Shown here: positions 18,383 to 60,183 of the stretch, in pieces
Numbering within the stretch: position 1 is the stretch's first letter
Layout of the letters: each line of letters opens with the position of its first letter
Source of the DNA: Tribonema minus
Taxonomy: Eukaryota > Sar > Xanthophyceae > Tribonematales > Tribonemataceae
Reading direction: 5' to 3'
Length of the DNA stretch: 64,000 nt
NCBI GenBank assembly: GCA_017506865.1
Contig: JAFCMP010000529.1
Location: 496,001 to 560,000, forward strand
The notes under the pieces: generated by a model
Database searches by the model: none
Seen by the model: the letters and a program-made list of their open reading frames with translations, nothing else
What the model was told of the DNA's origin: nothing
Translations under genes and position numbers: made by a program

Positions 18383-21300
18383 TCATTTGAGGTCGACGTC
18401 GACCAACGTGGCTGGCGCTGCCGTTGCAGCAGTTGCCTTCGCAGTGGCAGTGCTCTGTCGGGCATCAAAGGCCTCCCTGGCCAGCCGCCGCAGCTCCCCC
18501 GCTACCTGTCACATCGTACACCAAACCGGCACGTGTACACCAAGTGATGGGCAGTGCGCATTGAGACACTTGCACATTTTCACACGACACGTGTGGATGC
18601 CGGTAGCAACCTGGACATCTTGCATCTAGGCTTATTGCGCGCCGGGCGAGAAGTAATAGAGTACACGTTGCATCAGGTGTGAGTTTCCTGTGATAACGCA
18701 GGCACGACCGGAGACAAATGACCAGCAAACTCTGCAGGGGCTGCGTATCTGGCAGCCTGCAAGCATGCACATGGCAAGTACATTTTGAGTTCAGGCTTGC
18801 GCTGCTGACAGTACAGTCGAGCGCCGCCAACATCGCCACTCCTGAAAGCTCATGATACTGCAGTTTGTTGGTGCGCGCACAACATGTTTCTGTAGCTGCT
18901 TCACATACCTCCTCACTGGCCTCGTCGACCATCTGCGCGAACGCTCCCTCGGGGCCCTTGAGCAGCAGCTCGTGCGGGTGGCCCTCTTCAAGCACTTGCC
19001 CGTGTGACAAAACCAGCACCCTGCAGTTGCGAGCAGCAAGCATTGCGGCACCGGCGCTGGTCGTGCGCGTGTTGCTGTACTTTGTTTGCCATTGCTTGAG
19101 GGGCGAAAGGCTCGTGTTGCTATACTCTAAGATGCAGCACTGCTCAACAGTAATGCTACAGTACTTTTTTGAAAGGTGCTGCGGCCGATGGTCAGGGGGG
19201 CGCAGTCACGCAGAGTGTTGTCGTCATGTGCGCACATTCAAGGCAGCTGCAACAGGCGGCAGCTGCTGCGCCGCCGCTCAAAGAGTTGGCATTGCTCATC
19301 GGCAAGCGAACACTGCAGACCAAAATGCTGCTGGCACCATAAACGACGCTTGCAGCTCTGAAGCTCTCTCTCCTCCTGGCGCTGCTTGCACCTAGGAAAC
19401 TGCACTTCCCCATCAACTTGAAGCACGGGTGCACAGGGTCGCTGAAGCGAGCTTCATTGGCAGTGGCAGATGAATCAAGCCACAGCAGAAATCAACATTG
19501 TGACTGCAGGTACACCACCATTTGGCGATGTCGTTCAGGAGTGATCGTCAATGCGCATGGAGACACTTTTCAGTTCTCACAAGACACGAGTGGATTCTGG
19601 TAGCAAGCTGGACATCTACTATCTGAGCTTTTTCGTGCCCTAAGCCAAATGTAACTGGAAGTATAAGAAATACACTGCCGCTTTCATGGCAGGCCAGCAC
19701 CACGTACCTGTCGCAGTCGATGATGGTGCGCAGCCGGTGCGCCACGGTGATGACCGTGCATCCCGAGAACTGCGAGCGGCGGCAGCGTGGGGGCAGTCAC
19801 GAAGCCGCAGGCGGAGTCAGAGGCCGCACAGAGAAACTGGTATGGCGAGTGGTGACTGAGACGTGATGAGGGGCCCGTCAGATTGGCATACTTACATTGT
19901 GTTGATGATACCATCGAAGCAGCAGGGGCTGGAGTCGACCTTGGCTGCAGTTCTTCACTGTACCTCAAGACAGTAGAGGTATTACTGCCATATTGAGCAG
20001 TCCACTCATGTACATGCAACACCGCTGTGAGGCGAAGAGAACTTGCGGAAGCGTCACGCATCAGCTGCACTTGCTACAAGCGCTGCTAACGACTCGCAAG
20101 CACTATGCACCTTGACAAATTTGCATGACTCAAGGCTATCATTTATTGCATAGCCCTGGCAAGAGCAGCAGCTGCTATAGCAAGCTATCAGTTTGTCTTC
20201 AGTGAATGCATTACCTCAGTGAGCGCGGTAAGTGAAACCATTCAAACCCGCCTCATGAACCAAGTGCATCACCAATAGGGTGGGGGAGAAGTCACGCAAG
20301 CGCTGGTAAGGTACTTTCGAAATTGTCTCCTGCTTAACTAAGGCGTTTGACTCTACATCTCACTCATTGCATCTGGACCTGCGTCCGTGTTTGTTCTACA
20401 GTCATCAACAGATGCAGTACGGTATAGGGCCAATGTGGCTGCTCATTGCTGCAGTACGGTGTGTGCTGCTCTTGCTACTGCTGCTACTGCTGTGTTGCAC
20501 TGCTGCTGTTGCTGGCACTCACCTGAGTGCGCACCGCTGCCTGTATCAGGCTGTCGGTTCCCGTGTCAATGTTGGCTGTCGCCTCGTCCATGAGCAGCAG
20601 TTTGCTGCAACAAAGCGTGCGGCAGTCAACAGGATGACAATTGAGCAGTGAGCACAGCACGTGACAAGTAATGATGATGTACATGCACATGTTCACTGCA
20701 TGATGTGAAGGCTTAATTCACTGGCGCAAACCCTCATGCCATGACCCGTCATTGTGCCACGCTGCCATTCTGAATACCAGCACATGGTCACCATCGGTGT
20801 AGGTTATCGCCTCGTCATGAGCAGCAGTTTGCGGAACGTCCTGAAGAGGACAATGGGGCGGTGAGGACAGCATGTCAAAGAGTATCCGTGTATGTTGACT
20901 GCATTGGTGCCTGATCCACAGGCCCACACCTTTGCGCTATGATCTGTTGTTGCGCAAGGCTGAGACTGCCGTGTTGCGTCATTGTGCGGGACTGAACCAG
21001 CACATGGCTACTGATCAAGTACCTACAACAGCAAAAGCGCTGAAGATACCCAGACACATGCACAGCGTTTTGGGGGCAGCGGAAGTACCCTGCAATGCTG
21101 GAAGTCTAGAAAGAGTTTCTTATGGCTTGGGGTTTCTAGGGTGCAGCTGCGCACACATGGGACGATGGCGCATGTCCCAACAGGCTGATTGAGAAGTGAA
21201 TGTGCACGACACGTCTGAAAGATTTGAGCCTGACTTCACGAAAAGAACCAGCACCTAGCGTGGGTTTCCTGGGTTTGCAGCTAGCGTGAGTGCTCGAGTA

Positions 21301-60183: not shown

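Follow-up and report, generated by a model that had tools for sequence, protein, structure and literature searches.

Copies of exon edges within introns of Tribonema minus point to a heavy load of short local tandem duplications

Do the introns of an ABCC transporter gene in Tribonema minus hold copies of the ends of their own neighboring exons and, if so, do these copies record the creation of introns or a more ordinary kind of duplication? The question was raised by the initial annotation of a 64,000-nucleotide stretch of this genome (the window), which described such copies, here called echoes, together with their splice sites. We examined it in a single assembly of this eukaryote, a yellow-green alga, comprising 158 Mb in 554 contigs. 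The gene itself lies as follows.

18455-59870, minus strand: ABCC (MRP-type) transporter gene, placed by homolog alignment, its C terminus at the low-coordinate side; the last exons and some junctions in linkers are tentative

Its best homologs are 54-56% identical over part of the query: brown algal proteins reach 54-55% over about half of it, and a metagenome protein 56% over 75%. The exons were modeled with a purpose-written protein-to-genome spliced aligner and a profile of nine ABCC homologs, giving an initial model that spans 18455-59870 on the minus strand with 42 exons and 41 introns. A mini-exon at 44737-44754 was dropped from it on recognition that it is an acceptor-side echo of the start of the next exon; four exon ends and one exon start were shifted by 5-28 nt onto clear consensus sites, leaving a corrected model of 41 exons and 40 introns. 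Junctions in weakly conserved linkers were among those excluded from later counts; the ABCC edges left out are the donors of exons 11, 12, 13, 23, 24 and 41 and the acceptors of exons 11, 12, 13, 14, 22, 23, 24, 25 and 42. Some of these excluded junctions also have copies, for example a 92-bp array at 39651-39924. The uncorrected model underlies the codon-position decay, the donor-acceptor similarity, the scoring of echo sites and one count of junction-crossing arrays (19 against 13.4 expected).

We compared 40-mers from exon ends with 600 nt of their own intron, accepting scores of at least 17. With the corrected model, 17 of 63 supported ABCC edges are copied in their own intron, 11/33 on the donor side and 6/30 on the acceptor side, and 15 of the 40 introns are involved; both the presence of exon-end copies and their occurrence on the two sides of the splice junction, as originally described, are thereby confirmed. 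The initial model had given 11/38 and 6/38. Controls show how specific these matches are to the intron next door: donor probes of the initial model found none in 1446 comparisons with other introns and none in 760 with Markov-shuffled introns, and the reverse complement of the own intron yielded 1/38 donor and 0/38 acceptor matches. Exon middles matched introns in 3/20 cases on the donor side and 0/20 on the acceptor side. The match rate of 30-mers, 33% at the donor edge, drops to zero 80 nt inside the exon; on the acceptor side it starts at 16% and reaches zero at 40 nt. The initial annotation had staked its observation on exon ends exceeding exon middles; they do, so the observation survives. 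This comparison cannot, however, separate a process targeted to junctions from ordinary duplication that selection has purged from exon interiors.

The echoes of the ABCC gene are listed here, numbered as in the gene models and with the support for each in brackets.

55707-55746, 55550-55584 and 55376-55415, minus strand: three donor-side copies of the exon 4 end (55830-56002) in intron 4 (alignment)
56241-56308, minus strand: acceptor-side copy of the exon 4 start in intron 3, with AG and upstream intron (source 55990-56057; 76% over 68 nt, 13 nt exonic)
53692-53878, minus strand: donor-side copy in intron 6, period 199 (source 53892-54077 over the end of exon 6, 54019-54120; 83%; TRF array 53692-54074)
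51981-52104, minus strand: acceptor-side copy of the exon 9 start (51574-51744) in intron 8 (70% overall; score 35 over 39 nt within the exonic part)
51145-51447, minus strand: two donor-side copies of the exon 9 end in intron 9, period about 214 (alignment; TRF array 51133-51662)
50097-50198, minus strand: donor-side copy of the exon 10 end (50263-50396, donor re-placed) in intron 10 (alignment)
47119-47156, minus strand: donor-side copy of the exon 14 end (47433-47519) in intron 14 (97% over 38 nt)
45930-45976, minus strand: acceptor-side copy of the exon 15 start (45771-45866) in intron 14 (alignment)
45515-45629, minus strand: donor-side copy of the exon 15 end in intron 15 (alignment)
44731-44800, minus strand: acceptor-side copy of exon 44531-44655, with polypyrimidine tract, AG and about 40 nt of exon start, period about 120 (limits judged by eye)
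42847-43014, minus strand: donor-side copy in intron 19, period 165 (source 43016-43179 over the end of exon 19, 43115-43210; 82%; TRF array 42838-43180)
42753-42787, minus strand: second, weaker donor-side copy in intron 19 (alignment)
40397-40674, minus strand: two donor-side copies of the exon 22 end (40774-40860, donor re-placed) in intron 22 (alignment)
37217-37337, minus strand: two donor-side copies of the exon 25 end (donor 37426; exon reading frame tentative) in intron 25 (alignment)
34471-34570, minus strand: acceptor-side copy of the exon 27 start (34248-34377) in intron 26 (78% identical)
32912-33025, minus strand: donor-side copy of the exon 28 end (33155-33301) in intron 28 (89% over 114 nt)
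31575-31748, minus strand: two donor-side copies of the exon 29 end (31852-32002) in intron 29 (nearer unit 84% identical)
20798-20962, minus strand: acceptor-side copy of the exon 39 start (20523-20604) in intron 38 (64% overall, AG lost)

The copy at 44731-44800 is the clearest acceptor-side case, and it is part of this copy that the initial model had miscalled as a mini-exon. Aligned copies are mostly 70-90% identical to their source (range 64-100%, the 100% case spanning only 35 nt). When the alignments are extended, the tandem geometry is plain: head-to-tail units, mostly 50-280 bp long, start in the exon, pass the splice site and continue into the intron; each holds one splice site and its flanking intron. 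In several junction-crossing cases, source and copy are separated by gaps of 1-13 nt.

The second gene of the window was said to show the same pattern, and indeed it does, with an own-intron copy at 5 of 12 edges (donor 3/6, acceptor 2/6) spread over five of six introns.

9800-16065, plus strand: RlmL-like RNA methyltransferase gene (RlmL_1st, THUMP and UPF0020 Pfam matches), exons placed by hand from the matching reading frame
9800 (arbitrary start)-10038, 11326-11431, 12471-12595, 13360-13496, 14148-14331, 15077-15205 and 15937-16065, plus strand: its exons
11042-11624, plus strand: duplications flanking exon 11326-11431 on both sides, with an echo acceptor at about 11156 and an echo donor at about 11543 (TRF, site scoring)
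12563-12873, plus strand: three-copy 104-bp array of the end of exon 12471-12595, its donor and the following intron, with echo donors at distances 104 and 208 (TRF)
14763-15444, plus strand: echoes of exon 15077-15205, acceptor-side at about 14763 and 14896, donor-side at about 15294 and 15444 (site scoring)

We therefore asked how far the pattern extends beyond the window. The seven-gene set comprised ABCC, the methyltransferase, PRP8 on contig C531, an ABC gene on C523 and HSP70 genes on C544, C41 and C522, of which the last five were chosen without regard to echoes. For PRP8, exons were placed by alignment to the annotated Tribonema protein P0121, in which 1854 of 1892 aligned codons are identical; spliced models for C335, C1 and C146 were too weak and were not counted. 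Counts left out exons shorter than 40 nt, PRP8 exon 1 and the last two modeled PRP8 exons, low-complexity tiles, the C523 donors of exons 6, 7 and 9 and acceptor of exon 4, and a second HSP70 copy on C522. Over all seven genes, echoes mark 30/89 donor and 17/88 acceptor edges (47/177 in all) and 42/99 introns, as against 3/107 deep-exon tiles, all three in C523. The five independently chosen genes alone gave 25/102 edges (donor 16/50, acceptor 9/52) against 3/103 deep-exon tiles: 12/32 edges in PRP8, 9/28 in C523, and 3/14, 1/16 and 0/12 in the HSP70 genes of C544, C41 and C522. Six of the seven genes thus have at least one echo, and the original restriction to one gene falls away. In PRP8 intron 2 (L042), an approximately 86-bp unit begins three times over, exactly from the donor site and with AG-GT each time.

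Here too the copies are specific to their own introns. In a set of three genes with corrected models, 21/55 donor and 13/52 acceptor edges matched the own intron, whereas none of 2823 comparisons of exon ends with other introns of the same gene did, which speaks against a dispersed family; the corresponding figure for C523 was 0/368. A coarser test on the edges of Pfam matches at 35 loci (ABC, tubulin, RuBisCO-like, PRP8) found copies at 7/35 donor-side and 10/35 acceptor-side edges and 1/33 middles. Matches to the flanks of other loci numbered 11/1190 in that test, paralogs and overlapping stretches included, and it is to these paralogs and overlaps that we think the 11 are due.

Tandem pairs are abundant in these regions as a whole. 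The non-overlapping gene stretches, 186 kb in all, contained 115; 81 of these nearly abut, and the periods of the 81 range over 53-251 with a median of 120. Six arbitrarily placed stretches totaling 60 kb held 24, unevenly distributed (11 in one stretch, one in each of two), and both C522 HSP70 stretches held none. Controls gave none in shuffled sequences of 60 kb and 64 kb and one in 55 kb of E. coli. Among the youngest pairs found is one of about 130 bp at window positions 122-385, 93-95% identical.

The explanation that we favor, with a probability of about 0.83, is that the genome bears a heavy load of short local tandem duplications, and that those straddling a junction are tolerated and leave edge copies that decay neutrally. 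The T. minus genome would be loaded with units of mostly about 50-280 bp, median near 120, perhaps generated by break-end fill-in and end joining or by replication slippage. A duplication that straddles a junction would be tolerated because one outer copy, the upstream one for a donor and the downstream one for an acceptor, still serves as the exon edge. The spare exon end, splice site and flanking intron would then remain inside the intron, lengthening it and decaying at the neutral rate. Selection would presumably remove duplications disrupting exon interiors, so that echoes would come to sit at exon edges.

A single assembly lies behind all these counts, and mis-resolved tandem repeats could in principle mimic such a load. 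Most copies differ from their source by 10-30%, however, the pattern recurs on several contigs, and the annotated PRP8 protein P0121 reads the exons while omitting the echo-bearing introns; we give an assembly artefact a negligible probability.

A more serious alternative is that junctions are themselves special, either because chromatin, transcription-linked nicks or R-loops make them hotspots of tandem duplication, or because crossing duplications are selected as backup splice sites. Tiles lying wholly within introns bear on this. In the two window genes, 79/364 tiles within 100 nt of a junction had a tandem copy compared with 134/2082 beyond 180 nt, but in the five other, independently chosen genes the figures were 58/442 and 71/945, a ratio of only 1.75 (bootstrap range 1.1-3.0); C523 showed no enrichment (near 11/103, far 36/322), whereas PRP8 and the HSP70 genes did. 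In four genes including those of the window, near tiles exceeded far ones 3.5-4 fold in identity classes from 0.76 to 0.94, as a hotspot or selection might produce, yet only 1.5 fold in the youngest class (at least 0.94). Arrays located without reference to exons crossed junctions in 19 of 52 cases against 13.4 expected under uniform placement (p 0.04); corrected models, the addition of C523 and a looser crossing test gave 27 of 58 against 14.8 (p 0.0002). When 25 loci, mostly tubulin, were aligned on the ends of Pfam matches, which are not exon ends, no clear near/far enrichment was seen. We also simulated survivorship of near-junction sequence as a possible cause, but the ratios obtained with one duplication rate and five deletion settings, 0.74-1.16, were insufficient; these uniform neutral simulations thus gave no such enrichment. 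Uniform placement therefore does not fully fit: there is a near-junction excess, simulations do not reproduce it, and genes differ. The excess is probable but modest; we consider a junction hotspot or selection for crossing copies possible, but on balance unlikely.

Break-point gaps fell between -7 and +10 in 12 of 42 cases, which is no more than suggestive of microhomology. The two HSP70 genes on C522 (L056 and L057), about 24 kb apart in inverted orientation, offered a small additional comparison: of seven indels of at least 15 nt in their six introns, little sequence in all, none was a tandem copy of its flanks. The six exons of this pair differ at 17/1557 positions and the introns are 78-100% identical, intron 5 being identical, a pattern that suggests gene conversion.

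If load and tolerance are the right explanation, the copies should age like unconstrained DNA. Pooling copies at 37 junctions, we found mismatches at 35/501, 38/504 and 76/500 of first, second and third codon positions (about 7%, 7% and 15%), a count in which a few ABCC junctions are uncorrected. Where the intronic part could be aligned, it mismatched at 258/1338 sites (19%) and the exonic part at 107/1170, exonic identity being biased somewhat upward by detection of copies through their exonic part. With the exon held by selection and the copy decaying freely, change at positions 1 and 2 should reflect a single lineage, and change at position 3 and in the intron both lineages; the pattern fits such a neutral clock, for which the prediction is 1:1:2 and 2 for the intron. 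It also speaks against selection on the exonic copies. The initial annotation further suggested an ongoing process. This is doubtful in view of the scarcity of very young copies: of the pairs with an identity of 80% or more, 5/91 reach at least 95%, compared with 35/145 in a simulation with even ages. Either the rate has not been constant and activity has waned, or copies diverge fast at birth.

Could the copies nonetheless be in use as alternative or mutually exclusive exons? Many echo sites look strong enough: a GT or GC survives in 32 of 36 donor echoes. Scored against authentic donors, 17 of these 36 fall no lower than the 10th percentile, compared with 4.1% of 3263 intronic GTs. Acceptor echoes keep AG in 12 of 17 cases and reach the same authentic-site threshold in 7 of 17, against 18.3% of 2798 intronic AGs. 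To this extent the proposed large supply of cryptic splice sites is borne out, at the level of sequence. Open frames are rare, however: use of 47 of the 53 echo sites would cause a frameshift or introduce a stop, and two of the other six have lost the site, so that only 4/53 keep both a site and an in-frame, stop-free extension. Each of the aligned units also has one splice site, and decay at codon positions 1 and 2 is half as fast as at position 3, which a free copy would be expected to show. Use as exons is thus very improbable; the copies look like neutral debris, not new introns, and we infer from their sequences that the spare splice sites are mostly silent.

It remains to ask whether the echoes were left behind when duplication of exon segments containing AGGT created introns. 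This model is established elsewhere (PMC4974935, PMC3443670), and the PRP8 unit that begins three times at AG-GT is what it might lead one to expect. But the units already contain intron sequence, and the intron must have existed before them. Moreover, a new intron made in this way should have similar sequence around its donor and its acceptor. Among the 64 introns compared, 2 scored, against 3 of 1820 unrelated pairs; one of the two is a mis-modeled echo and the other a 78-nt stretch that looks low-complexity, leaving no credible similarity. The HSP70 paralogs on C41 and C544 have matching exon sizes except for a 491-nt intron present only in C41, and that intron has no duplication signature (score 11). 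Of the suggested route to intron gain and growth, then, the added length stands and the gain does not, and we regard an origin of the echoes in intron creation as extremely improbable.

An element of roughly 60-126 bp, dispersed and in both orientations, with identities of 74-97%, is common to introns of two genes. The translation of a further intron stretch bears a weak resemblance to a tyrosine recombinase (Phage_integrase, E 0.056, short of the family cut-off), which may mark a decayed mobile element.

About 59569-59689, 33347-33472 and 23168-23269 in the window and, in the C523 gene, introns 2 and 10, both orientations among them: dispersed element
24181-24680 in the window: intron stretch with the recombinase resemblance

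Dimers and trimers of TTAGGG also occur, on both strands: 22 tracts in 246 kb, 14 of them in the window between 12653 and 56894, compared with no tract of eight permuted hexamers; none of the 14 lies inside the modeled exons of the two genes. In methyltransferase intron 3, a TTAGGG seed lies near the end of each 104-bp unit. Of 20 seeds, 5 lie near duplication boundaries where 1.7 are expected (p 0.03), but as three seeds come from one methyltransferase array, we put no weight on this. A bolder proposal would make junctions the preferred sites of tandem duplication, through break-end fill-in that shares the telomere-maintenance machinery, with introns growing mainly from their edges and the TTAGGG seeds as the other trace of the process; we offer it as a long shot.

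Overall, about a quarter of the tested edges (47/177) are copied, which provides a countable record of how splice-site duplications originate and survive, and the echo load gives a means to ask why they so rarely become introns. Since selection keeps the source of each exonic copy nearly unchanged, every such copy also has a clock of its own. The echoes are also a natural test set, in which strong decoy splice sites lie beside real ones.

Introners and introner-like elements are known to provide a large supply of intron sequence. In the search for such families, no pair among the 98 introns of the seven genes was alike over at least 60% of the shorter intron, and 13 pairs shared a stretch of at least 50 nt, these being short dispersed stretches. 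Unlike introners, these 98 introns share no whole-intron sequence.

A plausible source mechanism is suggested by work on mouse and human cells, where staggered breaks give rise to small tandem duplications that depend on CST and Pol alpha-primase (PMC8355091). Like these, the Tribonema units are head-to-tail without pre-existing repeats; the overhangs named there, 47-54 nt, are shorter than the median Tribonema unit. With the general model of intron gain by tandem duplication, Tribonema shares both the duplication and the splice-site consensus inside the unit, but there exonic sequence is duplicated to create an intron, whereas here the units are already exon plus intron. A close parallel is the potato RdRp gene, in which an intron was gained by tandem duplication across an intron-exon boundary (PMC4974935). 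There too the duplicated segment crosses the boundary and copies splicing signals. This one potato case of boundary crossing, with general work on intron gain, is what the open-licence literature offered, and such a load of junction copies may be new in print. In potato a single event produced a new spliced intron; in Tribonema there are many events per gene, none detected as an intron, and it is the existing introns that are lengthened, by copies that then decay.
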